A stretch of DNA of 38,803 nucleotides from an uncultured Bacteroidia bacterium (GTDB lineage Bacteria; Bacteroidota; Bacteroidia; Bacteroidales; Prolixibacteraceae): the NCBI GenBank assembly GCA_903904515.1, contig CAIVCR010000081.1, forward strand, positions 1 to 38,803, given 5' to 3'. Each line of letters starts with the position of its first letter. The stretch's first letter is position 1. The position numbers and the translations under genes are program-made. Positions 22,464-37,453 of the stretch are shown piece after piece. Below the pieces are notes generated by a model that worked only from the letters and a program-made list of their open reading frames with translations, was not told the origin of the DNA and ran no database searches.

Positions 22464-23492
22464 TCAGCTGTGAATTTCGCCAACAGTTTTATCCGAAAAG
22501 TGAATATAGGTAAACAATTCGGGAATATGGGAGTCATACACGCCATGAGTGTTCCATGCCCACCCCGGATTTATCTTTGAATCCTGATCCTTTAATAACT
22601 CAAAACGGGAAAAATCCATTCTCCAAACATCGCCCGGCTTGGGTGGGAGCGACCTGTCACCTGCCAACAATTTCATCCCGGACCAGGGAATTGCAATCTC
22701 TACAGTCCACCCTTCATCAACATCTTCACTTTTGTTGGCTGTTCCATTTACCTTTACAGCTGTTTTCAACCCCTTGAGATCCCATTCACGGAAACCCCAC
22801 CGCCCTCCGCGCGGATGCTTTCGTCCATCAAAATCGCCTCCCAGAACCTCAACTTTCTGCGTCAGCAAATCCAATTCCGAAATCTCAAATCTGCTGCCAT
22901 GCTTATAGGCATCCTGCCAAACCCACAAAACTTCGTAAACTGTCCCAAAGGCATTGATCTCAAATTCATAATAACAATCCTCACCCGCAATAAATAGCTC
23001 AACATCATTATCATGCCATATTAGTGAGTCCCGTTTAGTCAATGTGGCTGCAACATTTGGTTCCTGGATCCAGTATGCCACATAGAGATTTTCATCATCC
23101 CACTGAACTGCAGCGCGCGTATCAAGAAGGGCAGATTTTCCTGTTACCAAATCGACAAACCGGGGGGATTTCGGAACGGCCTTCCAGGCCTCCTTTTCCA
23201 CCTCTCCATCAATAGATAGGTGTCCTGCTGCCCGGTAACAGGTATAATGTTTACACAACTCCTGATTGTAACCGTAGTTACCAGGCAATACTTCCACACT
23301 TGAAGAACCCTGGTTTGAACTGAGTGTGTGAGAAGATACACTATTCCCATAAATGGAGCGTTCTCCCCCATTGGGCAATTCGGAGATGGTTTTCCCCTCT
23401 GTGGTGGTCCAGACAGCAGGAACAGCAGCCGCTGCAGATAACAATAAGGAATTTCTCAGGAACAATCTGCGGGAATTATCTGTTTTATTCAT
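22464..23492 (-). CDS. Tat-exported carbohydrate-binding family 9-like protein
   Basis: 342 residues. A twin-arginine signal is visible, SRRLFLRN followed by a hydrophobic SLLLSAAAAVPAVW. The mature part fits the CBM9-like/DOMON-type fold (PF06452): GHLSIDGEVEKEAWKAVP, RAAVQWDDENLYVAYWIQEP, LIWHDNDVELFIAG, YYEFEINAFGTVYEVLW, EGWTVEIAIPWSGM and GDVWRMDFSRFE. Family members bind glycans or act as exported accessory proteins beside glycoside hydrolases. It lies downstream of the acyl-CoA ligase and the fucosidase on the same strand. The substrate is not predictable. Confidence 0.85.
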   Translation of the reverse strand: MNKTDNSRRLFLRNSLLLSAAAAVPAVWTTTEGKTISELPNGGERSIYGNSVSSHTLSSNQGSSSVEVLPGNYGYNQELCKHYTCYRAAGHLSIDGEVEKEAWKAVPKSPRFVDLVTGKSALLDTRAAVQWDDENLYVAYWIQEPNVAATLTKRDSLIWHDNDVELFIAGEDCYYEFEINAFGTVYEVLWVWQDAYKHGSRFEISELDLLTQKVEVLGGDFDGRKHPRGGRWGFREWDLKGLKTAVKVNGTANKSEDVDEGWTVEIAIPWSGMKLLAGDRSLPPKPGDVWRMDFSRFELLKDQDSKINPGWAWNTHGVYDSHIPELFTYIHFSDKTVGEIHS

Positions 23493-25593: not shown

Positions 25594-27591
25594 TTATAGG
25601 TGCAGCAAATTTGAATTTTCAATTACTGAACGATCTTTCCCGTTCGTTTTCCACTCCAGTTTTATGCCGTCGCCTCCACCAGCCTGGAAATACTGAATTT
25701 CCATTGGATGCATCCCCTTGGATAAGGAAATATCCATCGACTTTTCATCCATTCCATGGAGTCCGTCATTGGAAAGGGTTTTCCCCGATAGGATCATTTT
25801 AGATCCATCGTTTGAGCTCAGAAAAAATTGATAAACACCGGTCTGAGGAACTAACAGAAAACCGGCAAATACCACCCCATAGTCTGCTTTTCTCTTTTTC
25901 ATAGTCAGATCAATCTGCCGGGTCACCCCTGTATCCAAAGGTTTTAAAGCGGAGAAATCGGGTAATTGGCCCCAAACACCTTCGAAATAACTGTATTGTA
26001 ATCCCGGTTTGCTTTGCGGCACCTCAACGGCCGAAATGGGTTCTTCTTTGGAAAAAGCTCTTTCTGTGTAGCCGCTGATTGCTTTCCCATCTTTAAAACA
26101 GAGCGCTTTAACCACAAATGAAGCGGATGCAGAAACCGTGTTCATTCCATTGGCAACAGGTGATTCATTGGTCGGGACTGATCCGTCGGTTGTAAAACGG
26201 ATCACAGAACCGGGATTGTCAGAAGTGATTTTAAATGAAGCCTTATCGATAAAAACAGAGTATTCTGCCTGAATTTCTGGAGCATTGTATACCAGCACCT
26301 CCTGGCTGGTTTCCAAAACGATCACCGTTGCAAATTTCTCCCTGTTAACTTTTGAAACATCAATTTTCATAAAGTTTTCTGCAGTCTCCAGGTGAAGTTT
26401 CTGGTTTTTATTTTCCAGGGCAAAGGCTGCATCCACTTTACTGGCCAGGCCAGGAATTCGAAGAACGCCATCTTCCGGAAAATCGAAAACATGCAGGTAG
26501 ATAAGATTTTCCCCTCCCACTTTTTTAATCGTGCAACGCCCCCAATCCAATTTTTTAAACGGGCTGGCAGAAGTGCCATAAATAGCCTCTCCATTGGTTT
26601 TCATCCACGCTCCAACTGCTTTTAACCGTTCGATTGAAGGATCAGGAATAAGTCCAAGTGAAGTGGGGCCAACATTTAGCAGGTAATTTCCCCCTTTGGA
26701 TGCGATGTCGATAAGATTCCTCACAAGAGTTTCAGCGCTTTTCCAGTTGTGATCGTTGGCCCCATAACCCCAGGTGCCGTTCATGGTCATACACGATTCC
26801 CAGTTCTTACCGGGAAAGCCAGTCGAAGGGATAAACTGTTCCGGAGTTTCCAGATCCCCTGCAACACCTTCACAGAGCCGGTTGTTAACGATCAGATTCG
26901 GGTATTTGGCTAATATTGGTTCAAATTTGGCTGCCCGCTCTTTGGTCATTTCACAGGCGGTATCCCACCACAGGATTTCAGGCTTATAGTTTGAAAGAAT
27001 TTCACTAATCTGAGGAACTGCAACCTGGTCAAGGTATTTGTCAAAGCTCCCCTCCTGAGCAATATCCCAATGTCCTGAACATGCTGCACCGCCCGGGTGA
27101 TTCCAGTCCTGCGCCTGAGAATAATACAATCCAAAGTGCATTCCGTGTTTCTTACAGGCATCAGCCAACGCTTTTACAATGTCTTTTTTATAGGGAGTTG
27201 CATCTACAACATTAAAAGGATCGGAAGATTTAAACATTGCAAAACCCTCATGATGCTTGGATGTCAGCACAATATATCTCATTCCGGCCTCTTTCGCCAA
27301 AAGGACAAAACGATCAGCGTCAAAATGAATCGGATTAAATTGTGTAGCCAACTTCTTATAGTCGGCTACAGGAATCTTCATATAGCACTGAATCCATTCG
27401 GTCGTTTCACCGATCTTGGTTTGCCGGTTATTCCATTCCCCGGCAGGTATACTGTATAAACCCCAATGGATAAACATGCCGAATCTGGCCTCTTTCCACC
27501 AGGCCATTTTATCGGTCGGTGCCGCCGCGCTACAAACCAACAACTGAAAATAAAACAGGAATAGAAGTAAGTATTTATGCAGATTCTTCAT
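25594..27591 (-). CDS. Alpha-L-fucosidase, GH29, with C-terminal PA14 domain
   Basis: 665 residues. Signal peptide about 1-24 (ending SAAA). The GH29 barrel occupies about 25-345: WWKEARFGMFIHWGLYSIPA, LTSKHHEGFAMF, and PEILWWDT with the likely nucleophile Asp210. A beta-sandwich domain follows (about 355-430), then a chitobiase/FN3-like segment with DNPGSVIRFTTDGSVPT, then a PA14-type domain (about 535-665: LTMKKRKADYGVVFAGFLLV, FFLSSNDGSKMILSG). It cleaves terminal alpha-fucose from glycans in the periplasm or outside the cell. The short lipoprotein follows it closely; the EutBC gene lies 174 bases upstream. Confidence 0.93.
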   Translation of the reverse strand: MKNLHKYLLLFLFYFQLLVCSAAAPTDKMAWWKEARFGMFIHWGLYSIPAGEWNNRQTKIGETTEWIQCYMKIPVADYKKLATQFNPIHFDADRFVLLAKEAGMRYIVLTSKHHEGFAMFKSSDPFNVVDATPYKKDIVKALADACKKHGMHFGLYYSQAQDWNHPGGAACSGHWDIAQEGSFDKYLDQVAVPQISEILSNYKPEILWWDTACEMTKERAAKFEPILAKYPNLIVNNRLCEGVAGDLETPEQFIPSTGFPGKNWESCMTMNGTWGYGANDHNWKSAETLVRNLIDIASKGGNYLLNVGPTSLGLIPDPSIERLKAVGAWMKTNGEAIYGTSASPFKKLDWGRCTIKKVGGENLIYLHVFDFPEDGVLRIPGLASKVDAAFALENKNQKLHLETAENFMKIDVSKVNREKFATVIVLETSQEVLVYNAPEIQAEYSVFIDKASFKITSDNPGSVIRFTTDGSVPTNESPVANGMNTVSASASFVVKALCFKDGKAISGYTERAFSKEEPISAVEVPQSKPGLQYSYFEGVWGQLPDFSALKPLDTGVTRQIDLTMKKRKADYGVVFAGFLLVPQTGVYQFFLSSNDGSKMILSGKTLSNDGLHGMDEKSMDISLSKGMHPMEIQYFQAGGGDGIKLEWKTNGKDRSVIENSNLLHL

Positions 27592-27765: not shown

Positions 27766-30117
27766 TTAAGTAAGAGCATTAGGGAGTTGACTGCGTGATG
27801 ATGTAAACATTTCGGCTAAGATCTTTACAGTCTCTTTTGCGGCTAATTCGGGTTTAAGGGCTGTGTCTGAAATACCGGATACCACTTTGGAGTTATTGTG
27901 ATCCAGTTTCCCCCTCTCCTTCCACATGCTAATCAATGGAGCTGAAAGGTAGGCCGAAAAATTGTGATGCCCGGAGCCCGGCCTCTCTCCGATTATATGA
28001 ATAATCCCTTTGGGTCTGTCAATATCGGAATCCTGACCAAAGAGATATTCTCCGCATCGATATCCGGCTCTAACACGGCCATGCCGGATCACAACATTTT
28101 CAGACGAAACCGATAACCCCTTATTAATAAGCTCTTTATTCAGATATTCTAAAAACACTTTCAGATGACCTTCATCGGTAAGTGCGGAGACATTCAATCC
28201 ATCGGAAATCAATATCTGAACGTCAGGACTATTGCCATTCCATCGTCTTCTTAAGCTGTTCAATTTTTCAATGGCCTCCTGGGTTAGTATTTCACCTGTC
28301 GGGGGGTGATAAACATAATCCTTTCGGTCTGCTGAAGTGGTTCTTATAGATACCGGATTAGGAATCGAAGCGATAAACATTTCAGGCATCTCTCTCCAGA
28401 GGCAAACCTTGGAATCGGTATACAATTCATGGATTTTTTTGTCAAGTTTCGGTTCCAGGTCCCAGATATTCTTGCCATAGCCCTGAGCAATCGGGACACC
28501 TCTCCCCTCTATCTCGTCAATAAGCCTCTTCCCCTCGGCATAAATTACACCATTGGTTCTTATGTCCCCTTTTGCAATTCGGTATTTTAGGTAAACCCAT
28601 GCCGGATCGCCAAAATGTGCCGTAATTTTTCCGTCCGGCCCGAATATCTCAATCTTTTTGAAAAACTCCCACATCGCATCATTTACCTTGTACCCGAACT
28701 TTTCCCGGATTCGTACATGGTCGTTGAATCCGGTGGTAAGATAGCTTAGCATTGGATCGTTCTTTGTTGGAAGAGCCATCAGGTAAGCAGGATTTGCAGG
28801 CATTATCTGATCGATGCACCACTCCAGATCATCCAGGGTTATGTCCATATGCAACGTGGAACAGACATCCAGGCCTATAGTCAATCCATGAAGTTTCCCC
28901 ATAACCGTATCTTCCAGGCAACACCTCACCAATTGCTCCTTGCTCCTGAAAACTTCAGGACCAATAAATCCGGCTACATCATTTACATGGACCCACGGAC
29001 CGGGCATATTCTTTTGCTGGACCTGGGCAATTCTCTTTTTTAGTGCCCGCACAAATCCATACTTGCGGGATTCATGAACAACCATGTCAAATCCCTCGCC
29101 GTTTCCGTTAGTAAAGTCGGCACCCTGCCCGGTCTCAGCATATAATCCATATTGTCCGGTTCGGTTAGAGGCGTGATTAAACATTTTTTCTATCGTAAGA
29201 TCAAACGTTTTATTCGCCTTCACAGTTCCCCCCAAACTTTGAAACCAGATTCCCGTTGTACCCGGATTCCTGTTCTCAACTTCTGCCTGTATGTCGATGT
29301 GCGACAAGACACAATCAGGCATCACCTTTTCAAGTTCGAACGTTTTTAGGATATCATGAAGGGCACTGGCGATTCTGCCAACAGATTCGGGATCACTCGA
29401 TACAGGATTGGTTCCAAGGACGACATCGCCAACTGCGTATGACCATCCGTTAAAGACCTGCATCATTATATCGTCTATATTATCTGTAGGTGAATTGGGT
29501 TGAATACGGGCACTCAGGTACCCTTTTGCACCAATTTTGCTACCTGGCAGCGGATTAAACACCTTCTGCCCAACCTTTATCAACTCTTCATTGGTTAAGA
29601 GTTTGACCAGGCAACCAATAATATCGCTGGTTAATCCTGGCATAATCGCTTTGATCTGCTCTTCAGAATTCTCCAGGATAAAAGTTTTAAGTTCCCCCAA
29701 AGTGAGGTTGGAGATCGAATTGAAGATGTTGTGGTCGGTCGTTCTGGAAATCAGTGTAAGAAGTTCATCGTCAAAAAGCGGCCTTTCGCAGAGCTCCTTA
29801 ATTTTTGTGTTGGATAAGAGTACCCGGGCATTAACCCGCGAGTTTTCATTGATGGCAGCTATACCCTGAGCCAGGTCCCCCTCTTTGAACGGATTTGCAG
29901 AACCGACAATCCGTCTGTAAAACGATTGATCAAACGTGCCGTTCACCCTGTCAATGTAAGAAAACAGATCTTCCTTGCTCTTGGGGGTGATAATCTCACC
30001 CACATTTTCAACGAGGTCAGATGAAGAAGCGAAGGAGGACCTAAAGGGGATAAATAATACGGTGCCTGCGGTCAACCCCGAACTGAGAAGAAAATCTCTT
30101 CGACTATATTTTTTCAT
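27766..30117 (-). CDS. Ethanolamine ammonia-lyase, single-chain EutB-EutC fusion with Tat signal
   Basis: 783 residues from the ATG at 30115-30117; the longer frame needs a TTG and would hide the signal. A twin-arginine signal, YSRRDFLLSSGLTAG with hydrophobic run and SFA cleavage site near 30, precedes an EutB domain (about 40-510) and an EutC domain (about 625-775), together the summed length of the normal large and small subunits. Active-site residues known from E. coli EutB are kept: Arg204 and Gln206 (SARIQPN), Asn237 (GTNPV), Glu328 (YAETGQG), Asp417 (GLDVC). EutC shows DVQILISDGLN, VVIRHGRVRAGYRCGE and IIGERPGSGHHNFSAYL. The enzyme converts ethanolamine to acetaldehyde and ammonia with adenosylcobalamin. 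There is no eutA reactivase, shell protein or aldehyde dehydrogenase nearby. It lies 86 bases after a phosphoesterase lipoprotein gene. Confidence 0.9.
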   Translation of the reverse strand: MKKYSRRDFLLSSGLTAGTVLFIPFRSSFASSSDLVENVGEIITPKSKEDLFSYIDRVNGTFDQSFYRRIVGSANPFKEGDLAQGIAAINENSRVNARVLLSNTKIKELCERPLFDDELLTLISRTTDHNIFNSISNLTLGELKTFILENSEEQIKAIMPGLTSDIIGCLVKLLTNEELIKVGQKVFNPLPGSKIGAKGYLSARIQPNSPTDNIDDIMMQVFNGWSYAVGDVVLGTNPVSSDPESVGRIASALHDILKTFELEKVMPDCVLSHIDIQAEVENRNPGTTGIWFQSLGGTVKANKTFDLTIEKMFNHASNRTGQYGLYAETGQGADFTNGNGEGFDMVVHESRKYGFVRALKKRIAQVQQKNMPGPWVHVNDVAGFIGPEVFRSKEQLVRCCLEDTVMGKLHGLTIGLDVCSTLHMDITLDDLEWCIDQIMPANPAYLMALPTKNDPMLSYLTTGFNDHVRIREKFGYKVNDAMWEFFKKIEIFGPDGKITAHFGDPAWVYLKYRIAKGDIRTNGVIYAEGKRLIDEIEGRGVPIAQGYGKNIWDLEPKLDKKIHELYTDSKVCLWREMPEMFIASIPNPVSIRTTSADRKDYVYHPPTGEILTQEAIEKLNSLRRRWNGNSPDVQILISDGLNVSALTDEGHLKVFLEYLNKELINKGLSVSSENVVIRHGRVRAGYRCGEYLFGQDSDIDRPKGIIHIIGERPGSGHHNFSAYLSAPLISMWKERGKLDHNNSKVVSGISDTALKPELAAKETVKILAEMFTSSRSQLPNALT

Positions 30118-30203
30118 CACATTCTGATTTAATCTATCAAAATTAACAATCAACAAGTAATTTTAAGTGTTGCAGGAACACGACAAACTTGAATGTATAG
30201 TAC

Positions 30204-31934
30204 TTATTTTGATCCAGATGGTTTATACTTCGAAATCTTACCCTGCATTCGGAGAGTTAGTTTTTTGACCAGCTCTACATTGGTCGGCAATGGTGATTCC
30301 AGTCTGTCGTATGCCTGGTATGATGCAATTGCATAAGAGCGCGAAAGTGCGGCAAATGAATTGTGACTGACATCCGGATCTACATCGGCTGCCAGAATGG
30401 AAATCGTGTTATCGCTATTCCGCATGATATCGATGGTCCTGAATTGTTGGGGAAATTCCCGTAATGATCGTGTTTCAACCTCCCAGAATCCATTTTCGGG
30501 ATGCCCTTTATCGCCTGAAGCGAAAGGAGTGACCGCATCGAAATGACGGTGACCGGATAACCAAAGCATAAAGTTTGGATATTTTTTTAATTCCGCGATA
30601 ATTTCATCCTGAGCTGCCCCATCTATCCAGCCAAGTATCGATTGCGGAGCTTCTACTCCAATAGGGATATGTGCAGCGATAATCATCAGCTTATCCTCCC
30701 GCTGTCCAGCCTGGAGCTGCTTAATGAGCCATTCAAAACGGCCGTTCCCCAATGAGCCGCATCCATAACCAACGCCTGATGGCGGATTCTCACTTTCATC
30801 CATGGTGTCATCCAGGACTATAACCCTGAGCGGCAGATCTGATTTTGGTTCAAACGTATAACACCCGTCAAAAATATTGGGTTGATTAAATCCATGCCCT
30901 CTGGGAATTGTGGTCGTGTTTGAGAATTCTTTCATTATTTGCACTTTTGTAAGAGCCCGTCGATTGAGATCGGCCGGAATAGTCGGTATATTCTTCATTT
31001 CGGCCACTACTCCTGCCCCAATAATATCGCCATATAAAGTTCGGCCGTCCAAAGTGCCCATGGAATAGGTATTTAAATCCAGGGCATTATCCTGGGTAAA
31101 CGCATTTCCCATTTGGAGGATTTCCCTACCAATTAAGTTTTTTCGTACCTTTTCGTTAAATTTTTTTGCCCCTATAAAAAAATGGTCGTGATTCCCGATC
31201 GTCGCATACCAGGGAATCGATTTACAAAGCCCTTCAGCCTGATATTTATCCTGGTAATCGTTAGCCGGACCGGGTATAGGATCGTCCTTTTTCCCTGAAT
31301 CCGGATTGATGTTCTTCCCGTCAAAGAGATCTATAAACCATCTGAATTCATTGTAAATACTGGTGTTTGCCATATCGCCCAGGGCGATCCCGAAATCAAG
31401 CGGATTTTGTCGGTTAATGTCGTTAATGGTTTGAATAGCTGCATTTAAAACATGCGTCGAAAAGAGCATTGATGGTGAATAACATGAAATTGAGGAAGAA
31501 AATATCGCAGGAATGAAACTATACTCGATGGTTTGGGCAGGAGATTCTTTATCGGTGATATGAATGTCGGTCATCGTAAAGAAATGGAGTAATGATACCG
31601 CTTTTGTATCTGATTTTGAACTATATCCGTAGGGCATTAGCTCCAACATCCTTTTATAGGGGTAGCCGTGTCCAAATTGCCATTTGCCATAATTATACGT
31701 TGAAAACAGAGAAACATCCCATGGCTTAATTACTTTCCCTGAAATAACAGCATCAGGAAGGACAACCCTGTCAACTGTCGTATAAACACTCTTGCTATGC
31801 AAATCATTCGCATTAATCTTTGCATCCTTAAGTTCAATTACTTTGGCGGTGCCAACATCATATTTTTTGCAGCTGCTAACCATAAAAAATACAAAACAAA
31901 TCAATACAATCGAGGGCATTAACTTTGCATTCAT
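30204..31934 (-). CDS. Calcineurin-like metallophosphoesterase lipoprotein (TIGR03768-like)
   Basis: 576 residues. Lipoprotein signal ending at Cys22 (MVSSC). Metallophosphoesterase motifs in order: TDIHITD (Asp123, His125), LGDMAN (Asp187), GNHDH (Asn248, His249), AAHIPIG (His423) and SGHRHFD (His463, His465), giving a complete two-metal site. The segment TDIHITDKESPAQTIE resembles the TIGR03768 group. Substrate unknown; phosphomonoesters, nucleotides or phospholipid headgroups are all possible. It should be anchored in the periplasm or at the outer membrane. It is upstream of and probably co-transcribed with the exported EutBC protein and divergent from the S46 peptidase. Confidence 0.88.
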   Translation of the reverse strand: MNAKLMPSIVLICFVFFMVSSCKKYDVGTAKVIELKDAKINANDLHSKSVYTTVDRVVLPDAVISGKVIKPWDVSLFSTYNYGKWQFGHGYPYKRMLELMPYGYSSKSDTKAVSLLHFFTMTDIHITDKESPAQTIEYSFIPAIFSSSISCYSPSMLFSTHVLNAAIQTINDINRQNPLDFGIALGDMANTSIYNEFRWFIDLFDGKNINPDSGKKDDPIPGPANDYQDKYQAEGLCKSIPWYATIGNHDHFFIGAKKFNEKVRKNLIGREILQMGNAFTQDNALDLNTYSMGTLDGRTLYGDIIGAGVVAEMKNIPTIPADLNRRALTKVQIMKEFSNTTTIPRGHGFNQPNIFDGCYTFEPKSDLPLRVIVLDDTMDESENPPSGVGYGCGSLGNGRFEWLIKQLQAGQREDKLMIIAAHIPIGVEAPQSILGWIDGAAQDEIIAELKKYPNFMLWLSGHRHFDAVTPFASGDKGHPENGFWEVETRSLREFPQQFRTIDIMRNSDNTISILAADVDPDVSHNSFAALSRSYAIASYQAYDRLESPLPTNVELVKKLTLRMQGKISKYKPSGSK

Positions 31935-36160: not shown

Positions 36161-37453
36161 TTATTCCAGAACAACAATAGTATCAAGGTCGTCCCACCGA
36201 TCCAAAGAACTGATTGTCAGAGATACCGAAGAATCTGTTTGCTTCAGCTCAATTTTATGATTATTGGAGAATAGCCGGGCAGATTTAAAATGTCGCTGAT
36301 CGGCCGGTACCGGAAGTTCTAATTTTGTCCCTTTGGGCGGTAAAAAAACATGCAGGAAAGTCTTTTTGCCATCTGGGGATTCTGTTGCAACATATTGAGT
36401 CCCTAACAAAGGTTGACCCTCTTTGGCAGGATAGGCTTTCCCCGGATGTGTTTCAAAAAGTGACTCACCGGCTTTATCAATGAATCCACCCAGATCTTTA
36501 CAAAAAGTGCGGACTCCAGGCTCCCATCTCCCACCCGGATGTGGCCCAAATGACCAGCAACTTCCGCCCCCAATCCGATTAGTTACCGTTGCCTGAAGAA
36601 CCGTATAACGGTAAGCCATTTCAGGATTAAACATCACATTATTTACTTTCGCCCACCACTCACCGCTGATCCTTTGGCATCTTACCCAACTTATTGCCGG
36701 AAACGGAGGGACCATATTATCCTCATTTGCGGAAAAATCAGCACATAAAGGGTTGTACCCGCTGTTCTGAATGATCCATGATTCCGGATAACGGTCAATG
36801 ATGGTTTTTCGTAACCTTGCCGCATCAACCTGTTCAGGAAGCCCGCCATCGATAAAATAACCGGAAATATCCTTCCCATAATTATTTACTATTTCGCCCA
36901 GAAATTCATTCACAAAATCGTTCCATTGCCTAAATGGTGCGCCATTATTCCATCCGGTACGTTCCTGGTCTTCTTTGGTCAGATCGTGCCCGTCACTTGG
37001 ATGGAAGTAGAGCAACACACGAATATCCTTTGTTTTTAATGCCTGAATTAGATCCCGGATAACATCCCGTTTTGAGTTGTGGCCAGGTAACCGTTGGCTC
37101 ATTACTGCACTCGGATAGAGCACATTCATATTGGCATGAAAGGGGGTAAAGACAACATACTGTGCCCGCATGGATACCGCTGTTTGAGCGATATCATTGA
37201 CATCCAGGTTATCAGCCAGTTCATCCAGATTTCGCACCTTTGTGGTGTCTGCCCACAATGTGGAACCCCACTGATACGGTTTTCCAACATAGGTATAATG
37301 GATAAACATCCCAAGATGCATTTGCTGAAAAGCATGACTCTTTGAAATTGAATCGCCATTTTGTGTCCCACTTTTTGCCTGAAGCTGAAAACAAGTTAAT
37401 GAAGCAACCAGCAGAACGGCAGCAATATGTTTTAATTTACCTGAATTTCTCAT
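36161..37453 (-). CDS. Divergent GH29 (alpha-L-fucosidase-like) protein
   Basis: 430 residues with a signal peptide (cut near LQAKS). The barrel start, QQMHLGMFIHYTYVGKPYQW, and GYFIDGGLPEQVD (possible nucleophile Asp202) fit GH29, and a beta-sandwich domain with the KTFLHVFLPPKGTKLELPVP segment follows. The HHEGF motif of typical fucosidases is replaced by VFTPFHANMNVLYPS, so the active-site pocket differs and the substrate may not be fucose. It is shorter than the enzyme at 25594 and lacks the PA14 domain. The gene is monocistronic, converging on the small membrane protein gene. Confidence 0.75.
   Translation of the reverse strand: MRNSGKLKHIAAVLLVASLTCFQLQAKSGTQNGDSISKSHAFQQMHLGMFIHYTYVGKPYQWGSTLWADTTKVRNLDELADNLDVNDIAQTAVSMRAQYVVFTPFHANMNVLYPSAVMSQRLPGHNSKRDVIRDLIQALKTKDIRVLLYFHPSDGHDLTKEDQERTGWNNGAPFRQWNDFVNEFLGEIVNNYGKDISGYFIDGGLPEQVDAARLRKTIIDRYPESWIIQNSGYNPLCADFSANEDNMVPPFPAISWVRCQRISGEWWAKVNNVMFNPEMAYRYTVLQATVTNRIGGGSCWSFGPHPGGRWEPGVRTFCKDLGGFIDKAGESLFETHPGKAYPAKEGQPLLGTQYVATESPDGKKTFLHVFLPPKGTKLELPVPADQRHFKSARLFSNNHKIELKQTDSSVSLTISSLDRWDDLDTIVVLE

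Follow-up and report, generated by a model that had tools for sequence, protein, structure and literature searches.

The window, a stretch of 38,803 nucleotides from an uncultured Bacteroidia bacterium, carries a gene for a single chain that consists, from N- to C-terminus, of a twin-arginine leader, EutB, a linker and EutC (Table 1). The mechanical open reading frame of this gene covers 27766..30156 and opens with a TTG at 30156; the ATG at 30117 is the likelier start and gives the N-terminus MKKYSRRDFLLSSGLTAGTVLFIPFRSSFA. The protein was matched by the Pfam EutB profile PF06751 with 465 bits (cut-off 25) and, behind it in the same open frame, by the EutC profile PF05985 (cut-off 25.8). It also met the NCBIfam EutB model PRK15067 (605 bits, cut-off 554) and did not reach the NCBIfam EutC equivalog model (72 bits against a cut-off of 230). 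The profile scores, together with the retention of the fusion and the leader in homologues, exclude a chance origin of the fused gene. A sequence-only reading of this DNA had described a fused EutB-EutC behind a Tat-type leader, and the SRRDF motif and the two Pfam domains in one frame bear this out. The EutC part, which had been called complete, does show the profile match and the motifs; however, its match covers Pfam positions 60-230 of 235, the first 59 being unmatched, and with 39 bits to 3any_B it is remote from characterised EutC. In five other exported members the Pfam EutC match begins at position 15-36. An AlphaFold model computed from ten rows was weak (pLDDT 59.7, pTM 0.51) and added little beyond the sequence evidence; its best structural matches were the EutB chains 3abo_A and 2qez, followed by the EutC chains 5ysr_D and 3abo_B.

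Table 1. Features of the lyase gene and its upstream neighbour in the window.
Feature	Position	Strand	Evidence and remarks
One-chain EutB-EutC, predicted to be exported	27766..30117	(-)	783 aa; ATG start at 30117
Twin-arginine leader	30022..30117	(-)	MKKYSRRDFLLSSGLTAGTVLFIPFRSSFA, then SS; SRRDF motif, weakly hydrophobic h-region; leader end set by eye
EutB domain	28618..29916	(-)	PF06751; matches to PDB 2qez_A and 3abo_A
Linker between EutB and EutC	28363..28617	(-)	~85 residues; ends are the Pfam match borders; conserved in the family alignment
EutC domain	27790..28362	(-)	PF05985, 100 bits; 3any_B, 39 bits; ISDGL, GRV and GERPG motifs
TIGR03768 metallophosphoesterase with lipobox-like leader	30204..31934	(-)	561 bits (cut-off 387); upstream of the lyase

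Homologues with the same architecture were collected from Bacteroidota, one Ignavibacteriota genome, Desulfobacterota-type genomes and Sinorhizobium-group plasmids, giving 31 family members in four phyla as judged by record titles; for Pseudomonadota the sampling comprised plasmid records and a single genome scan at species level that used six short peptide patterns. The phylogenetic tree groups all 31 exported members in a single clade (support 99/99), and the ordinary EutB proteins, joined by the leaderless protein L069, are set apart from it (100/100), with a warning from the tree tool that long branches meet between the exported family and ordinary EutB. L069, a second copy in one carrier genome, is likewise a single chain with both Pfam domains and shows 36.5% identity to the window protein. 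In contrast to the family, it has no leader in its ORF call, and it sits on a very long branch, so that its position on the tree is unsure. Among 295 genomes of the order of the window genome, no second family member and one ordinary EutB were found; among 149 genomes of the class of the member L005, the family was found in the centre genome only. Searches of viral contigs gave 72 pattern matches with no relative among them. Two ordinary EutB matches, whose listed open frames are 759 and 760 aa long, were considered as fusions and rejected, as EutB and EutC lie there in separate frames with stops between them. We found no description of exported single-chain ethanolamine ammonia-lyases in the literature searched.

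The family resembles the known EutB-EutC enzymes (E. coli, PDB 3abo; Listeria EutB, PDB 2qez) in homology, in the order of EutB and EutC, in the pocket residues and in the EutC motifs. It differs from them in being one chain instead of two, in its export leader and its linker, and in forming a deep separate clade whose carrier genomes mostly lack a full-length EutA. Ordinary Bacteroidota loci, such as L013 and L014, encode EutB and EutC as separate genes. R204, Q206, N237, E328 and D417 (numbered from the ATG), which the sequence-only reading had listed as preserved substrate and cobalamin-proximal residues, do not vary among the 31 members or among the 12 ordinary EutB proteins compared. In E. 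coli EutB the substrate-site residues are R160, Q162, N193, E287 and D362, which we take to hold ethanolamine. Of eight pocket positions, seven are identical in all 31 members and one is methionine in 24 and isoleucine in seven. The GR of the EutC motif GRV occurs in every member and GERPG in 29, the remaining two (L067 and L068) losing the region at contig ends; hence the EutC motifs, presumably cobalamin-proximal, are retained in every member whose contig reaches that region.

All 31 members carry a leader, in contrast to none of the 12 ordinary EutB proteins. By our own classification 15 leaders are of the twin-arginine type, two have a degenerate pair and 14 are Sec-like. Thus the twin-arginine type, from which the sequence-only reading had started, occurs in about half of the family, and leaderless members were not found. 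The maximum hydropathy over 12 residues ranges from 1.43 to 2.11 in the twin-arginine group (1.66 in the h-region of the window leader) and from 2.54 to 3.32 in the Sec-like group. The ranges are disjoint, and their order agrees with an excerpt of PMC5539426, by which Tat leaders have the lower hydrophobicity. Among the 29 clearly typed rows the tree requires at least two changes of leader type. Since every member has a leader although its type has switched at least twice, export itself appears to be conserved, and on these sequences the export of family members from the cytoplasm is well supported. TatC was found in all 26 carrier genomes searched, a set without the rhizobial genomes, and is therefore useless for telling Tat from Sec carriers. 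According to an excerpt of PMC3306737, Sec transports unfolded chains; on this basis the existence of Sec-type members rules out a general export of pre-folded, cofactor-loaded enzyme. The folded and pre-loaded export proposed earlier may still apply to the Tat members, but it does not extend to the 14 Sec-like ones.

Classical ethanolamine ammonia-lyase is thought to need EutA. In the window genome, which is about 83% complete, neither EutA nor a PduO-type adenosyltransferase was matched. Some match to the EutA profile was obtained in 22 of the 26 carriers, above the cut-off in 16, and the profile also matches five of 14 control genomes; full-length EutA (455 bits) is present in one carrier, while all other matches are partial and score 18-38 bits. 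The lack of a EutA companion, already pointed out from the sequence alone, is thereby extended, as regards the full-length protein, to 25 of 26 carriers, and none of the 20 window proteins scanned with Pfam and NCBIfam profiles is a further eut gene. Of the adenosyltransferases, the PduO type was searched and is present in 10 of 26 carriers in a mixed pattern.

Frequent neighbours of the lyase in Desulfobacterota-type loci are an aldehyde:ferredoxin oxidoreductase (AOR), a 265-aa membrane protein and a beta-barrel-like protein, with a BtuCDF-like transporter as a rarer one. In eight of 18 such loci an AOR gene is found on the lyase strand no more than 5 kb away, where AOR copy numbers would predict 0.63. 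This linkage alone is unspecific, since these carriers hold 3-25 AOR copies each; no AOR was matched in the window genome. The 265-aa protein encoded beside the lyase is present in 13 of 345 genomes, nine of these among the 16 carriers, and once the five carriers that supplied sequences for the search model are left out it is found in four of eight against 0.26 expected (P ~4e-5; kinship between genomes is ignored in the neighbour P values). The Desulfobacterota-type neighbours fit a release of acetaldehyde and a supply of corrinoid from outside. No linked neighbour is common to three or more of the Bacteroidota loci. At locus L062 the neighbour is a carbohydrate phosphorylase by Pfam, adjoining acetate kinase and phosphotransacetylase.

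On balance we favour, with a modest degree of confidence, a one-chain ethanolamine ammonia-lyase of the coenzyme-B12 type that is exported, through Tat in the window organism, and acts in the periplasm or on the cell surface. The fusion, the leader, the conserved export by Tat or Sec, the intact substrate site, the EutC motifs and the usual lack of full-length EutA are read from the sequences, and we infer the activity, the cofactor and the substrate. The mature protein would take up a cobamide and convert extracytoplasmic ethanolamine to acetaldehyde and ammonia by the usual adenosylcobalamin radical mechanism. The uncharged products might then pass the inner membrane, and in Desulfobacterota-type genomes the neighbouring, presumably cytoplasmic AOR would oxidise the acetaldehyde, while the BtuCDF-like importer, the beta-barrel-like protein and the conserved membrane protein could handle corrinoid or substrate. 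As an advantage, the cell could use ethanolamine without having to import it. Without EutA, the spent cofactor would have to be exchanged in the ATP-free compartment, or else the protein would be consumed.

Alternatively, a lyase of this type, likewise exported, could act on another small amino alcohol or diol and deliver the aldehyde to the neighbouring AOR. A structure of ethanolamine ammonia-lyase with 2-amino-1-propanol exists (title of PDB 5ysr), one pocket position varies between methionine and isoleucine, and the substrates of the many carrier AORs are not known; yet the charged and polar residues that presumably hold ethanolamine in E. coli EutB never vary in the family, and we regard another substrate as unlikely. 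It is distinctly improbable that the protein is no lyase at all and, as an exported corrinoid binder, supplies a BtuCDF-type importer with cobamides that it captures or stores. BtuC- and BtuF-like genes do occur near the lyase at three loci on separate tree branches, the beta-barrel-like protein adjoins the lyase in several loci, full-length EutA is confined to a single carrier, and Sec-type members, folding outside, could acquire free corrinoid. However, a mere binder does not need a whole substrate site kept over such distances, the AOR linkage fits an aldehyde-forming enzyme, and importer genes are present in few loci, with none noticed in the Bacteroidota loci read.

In favour of a leader that merely anchors or mislocalises a protein working on the cytoplasmic side, cleavage of the leader is a prediction from sequence and two members have degenerate arginine pairs. 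Two types of export signal in one family, whose hydrophobicity fits the respective route in each case, are hard to square with a protein that stays inside, which makes this explanation very improbable. The least credit, a very slight one, is given to the route proposed in the sequence-only reading, in which the TIGR03768 lipoprotein would release ethanolamine from the head groups of lipids for deamination by a folded, cobalamin-loaded lyase. The metallophosphoesterase lipoprotein reported upstream was recovered, with a VSSC lipobox-like site and metallophosphoesterase motifs recognised by eye; its gene is on one strand with the lyase gene, 86 bases away, with no terminator-like site listed on that strand, and both products look exported. 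In addition, three other loci (L004, L027 and L030) have a PF00149-superfamily phosphoesterase within about 1.2 kb of the lyase. These three, however, match different families with scores below the cut-off, have no TIGR03768 match and are leaderless by eye. TIGR03768 itself is unmatched in 21 of the 26 carriers (rhizobial records lay outside this search); four of the five carriers with a match have a copy on a contig other than that of the lyase, and the window genome has two more copies on another contig (C13). Since TIGR03768 and the lyase share a contig in the window genome only, the adjacency not being seen in the other 25 carriers searched, the proposed partnership and its ethanolamine route find little comparative support, and the phosphoesterase probably does not belong to the conserved lyase system. 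Moreover, pre-folded export is impossible for the Sec-type members.

To our knowledge, adenosylcobalamin radical enzymes are regarded as cytoplasmic and as dependent on adenosyltransferases and ATP-driven reactivases. Reductive dehalogenases are Tat-exported corrinoid enzymes and thus a precedent for a cobamide enzyme with a Tat signal, although their fold and chemistry are different and involve no adenosyl radical. The recurrence of export-tagged versions in distantly related bacteria suggests that some bacteria run ethanolamine ammonia-lyase chemistry outside the cytoplasm. A broader proposal, to which we give somewhat less than an even chance, is that coenzyme-B12 radical catalysis takes place there through a widespread exported family without an ATP-dependent reactivase, whose Sec-type members would load cobamide in the periplasm. 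If so, cobamides would be catalysts outside the cytoplasm, and their delivery and renewal there would become questions. The model symbiont Sinorhizobium meliloti carries a family member on pSymA, with the locus tag U8C44_07295 in record CP140920, which makes the gene directly testable in a laboratory organism; annotated plasmid records name the Sinorhizobium homologue simply EutB.

The window's lyase has a mechanical start at TTG 30156; from the ATG at 30117 it has 783 residues and the N-terminus MKKYSRRDFLLSSGLTAGTVLFIPFRSSFA. Its EutB part matches PF06751 (465 bits) and, about 85 residues further on, its EutC part matches PF05985 (100 bits); with both domains in one frame, the sequence-only reading of a single EutB-EutC chain behind a Tat-type leader holds. 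The EutB part passes the NCBIfam EutB model (605 bits against a cut-off of 554), and the EutC part is far under the NCBIfam EutC equivalog cut-off (72 vs 230 bits). Among solved structures, the EutB part matches Listeria EutB (2qez_A, 236 bits) and the E. coli protein (3abo_A, 218 bits), and the EutC part matches E. coli EutC (3any_B, 39 bits). Structure prediction gave a weak model (pLDDT 59.7), whose top matches are EutB and EutC chains, followed by diol and glycerol dehydratases. No second EutB match was found in the window genome, which is about 83% complete. The phosphoesterase gene and the lyase ATG are 86 bases apart, and the scan listed no terminator-like site on the minus strand of the window. 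In addition, a CBM9-domain protein with a twin-arginine-like leader lies in the window, not far from two alpha-L-fucosidase-family genes.

Coordinates of the lyase, the phosphoesterases and other features in the window and the compared loci
Feature	Location	Strand	Remark
Fused EutB-EutC ORF	window 27766..30156	-	one open frame
TIGR03768 metallophosphoesterase, lipobox-like leader	window 30204..31934	-	family model match; upstream of lyase
CBM9-domain protein	window 22464-23492	-	leader NSRRLFLRNS
Alpha-L-fucosidase-family gene	window 25594-27591		
Alpha-L-fucosidase-family gene	window 36161-37453		
TIGR03768 phosphoesterase genes	G000 (window genome), contig C13:1945-5069		two, in tandem
Calcineurin-like phosphoesterase	L004:11578-12489		near lyase; family other than TIGR03768
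Calcineurin-like phosphoesterase	L027:6435-7094		near lyase; family other than TIGR03768
Calcineurin-like phosphoesterase	L030:7827-8744		near lyase; family other than TIGR03768
GH94 enzyme, with glucoamylase-family protein in S. meliloti	L028:4603-9839 and L031:5895-9749		S. meliloti and S. terangae; directly upstream of exported lyase
Membrane protein, about 265 residues	L055:11621-12418		directly downstream of lyase
Fused EutB-EutC	L069:6104-8275		without leader; 723 aa

The exported EutB-EutC is a family and not a lone case. Six short peptide patterns, scanned against one genome per species, returned nine relatives of 58-79% identity. Within a sample of 395 genomes from the window's phylum, the window genome and one other (G191, 64% identity) hold fused copies, the remaining 11 matches spanning EutB only; 295 genomes of the window's order gave no additional member and one ordinary EutB. 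Of 345 genomes from the phylum to which the Desulfobacterales locus L008 belongs, 16 (centre genome included) have a match at E ≤ 1e-100; of 149 genomes from the class that includes the Melioribacteraceae locus L005, only L005's own has one. Pseudomonadota were covered by plasmid records and the six peptide patterns of the species-level scan. The plasmid collection contains 25 matching records (E ≤ 1e-100, at least 80% of the query covered; 53-55% identity), from Sinorhizobium (23), Ensifer (1) and Pararhizobium (1), and three S. meliloti plasmid records annotate the protein as plain EutB.

N-termini were compared for 31 members (the window, L002-L007, L009, L010, L027-L031, L054-L068, L070 and L071, where L071 contains L008 and L070 contains L012), including five of the 25 plasmid records; L026 was dropped for a leader identical to that of L028, and 19 others stayed outside the count. 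By our own assignment from the sequences, the twin-arginine leader claimed for the window protein recurs in some homologues and is replaced in others: the RR motif is present in 15 members (the window, L002-L006, five rhizobial plasmids and, within the Desulfobacterota-type sample, L062, L063, L064 and L066), L007 and L070 show RE or RK at that site, and the remaining 14 have Sec-like leaders. Sec leaders are more hydrophobic than Tat leaders, according to a passage of PMC5539426. The peak 12-residue mean hydropathy runs from 1.43 to 2.11 among RR leaders, reaches 1.51 and 1.62 in the degenerate pair, and spans 2.54-3.32 among Sec-like leaders, which overlap with neither of the others; it does not exceed 1.18 in 12 ordinary EutB proteins, which have no leader. 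L067, with an RR near its start, was counted as Sec-like for its Sec-type h-region, and the RR match of the ordinary EutB L020 is a chance one, located before its start. TatC was found in every one of the 26 carrier genomes searched, so having the Tat machinery does not account for the choice of route.

A tree was built from the EutB part of 44 proteins, namely the 31 exported members, L069 and the 12 ordinary EutB. The exported members form one clade (support 99/99) and, together with L069, are split from the ordinary EutB (100/100), with a warning from the tree tool that long branches join between family and ordinary EutB. The RR leaders are found in two separate groups, requiring at least two changes between RR and Sec leaders, so that members probably switched export route while staying exported, as would be expected if location outside the cytoplasm matters. 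L069, a fused protein with 36.5% identity to the window protein, sits on a very long branch, and its position is uncertain; its genome also encodes an exported form, and L069 may be a separate type of single-chain lyase located in the cytoplasm.

Judged from the alignment, the substrate site of the exported family is intact. R204, Q206, N237, E328 and D417, which the sequence-only reading had found kept in the window protein, are invariant in all 31 members, as are F384 and L457; M447 is kept in 24 and replaced by I in the other seven (window ATG numbering). The first five correspond to positions 160, 162, 193, 287 and 362 of an ordinary EutB, and F384, L457 and M447 to positions 329, 402 and 392; in E. 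coli these eight positions have roles in binding ethanolamine. The EutC motifs GR and GERPG, which have their roles near cobalamin, are present in 31 and 29 members, respectively, the two GERPG exceptions (L067, L068) ending at contig ends.

The proposal that the neighbouring phosphoesterase frees ethanolamine from lipid headgroups is possible in the window organism and finds little comparative support, TIGR03768 not being a conserved partner. TIGR03768 occurs in five of the 26 carrier genomes (rhizobial records lay outside this search), and on the lyase's contig in the window only. PF00149 phosphoesterases lie within about 1.2 kb of the lyase in L004, L027 and L030; none matches TIGR03768, and their nearest models, none of which reaches its cut-off, are those for nucleotide phosphatases, protein phosphatases or cyclic nucleotides. 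The window genome encodes two further TIGR03768 phosphoesterases on another contig. Meanwhile, the reported lack of the EutA reactivase extends from the window to its genome (about 83% complete), which has no EutA match. Some EutA match was found in 22 of the 26 carriers and passed the family cut-off in 16, full-length only in G946 (455 bits). The others score 18-38 bits with partial model coverage, and the model also matches five of 14 control genomes; judging by these scores and controls, the weak matches would represent other actin-fold ATPases.

EutBC is thought to act within microcompartments, as put in a passage of PMC11334477, and among the literature matches listed we found no open-access description of an exported ethanolamine ammonia-lyase. 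The exported lyase would probably convert ethanolamine to acetaldehyde and ammonia outside the inner membrane, with adenosylcobalamin as its putative cofactor. Because Sec transports unfolded chains (a passage of PMC3306737), Sec-type members would have to take up the cofactor outside, and Tat-type members might be loaded before or after export.

Gene context is informative in the Desulfobacterota-type loci; in Bacteroidota and Ignavibacteriota, no linked neighbour recurs in three or more of the members' loci. Aldehyde:ferredoxin oxidoreductase (AOR) genes lie within 5 kb of the lyase on the same strand in eight of 18 Desulfobacterota-type loci (at 28-2,933 bases, or overlapping the frame-extended start), and a ninth locus has one at a distance of 5.8 kb; several loci truncated by contig ends were scored as misses. 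From the per-genome AOR copy number (3-25), 0.63 loci are expected (P = 4e-7 assuming independent loci, which related loci are not; P about 5e-4 over five lineages of our grouping). This linkage suggests that in these organisms the aldehyde would be oxidised inside the cell.

In seven loci the gene directly downstream of the lyase encodes a membrane protein of about 265 residues, none of the seven copies having a Pfam match. Its distribution follows that of the exported lyase among Desulfobacterota-type genomes: it occurs in 13 of 345 and in nine of the 16 carriers (seven times on the contig of the lyase, one of these being a fragment, and twice on another contig). Five of those carriers contributed rows to the search model; without them the co-occurrence is 4/8 (expected 0.26, P 4e-5), or 3/5 with full-length matches alone (P 2e-4). 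In six loci the gene immediately upstream encodes a beta-barrel-like protein, which in L054 is set one gene further away; of five such proteins scanned, two match PF09694. L010, L055 and L060 have genes for a FecCD permease and a binding protein close to the lyase gene, and L010, L055 and L061 have one for a transporter ATPase. The L055 and L060 permeases, like the L055 ATPase, have B12/corrinoid transporter models as their best matches, all scoring below cut-offs; model comparison of the L055 binding protein gives no pointer to B12. In S. meliloti, adhP and phosphoketolase genes lie more distant upstream than the GH94 and glucoamylase-family genes, and in S. terangae a GH94 enzyme is also encoded directly upstream of the exported lyase.
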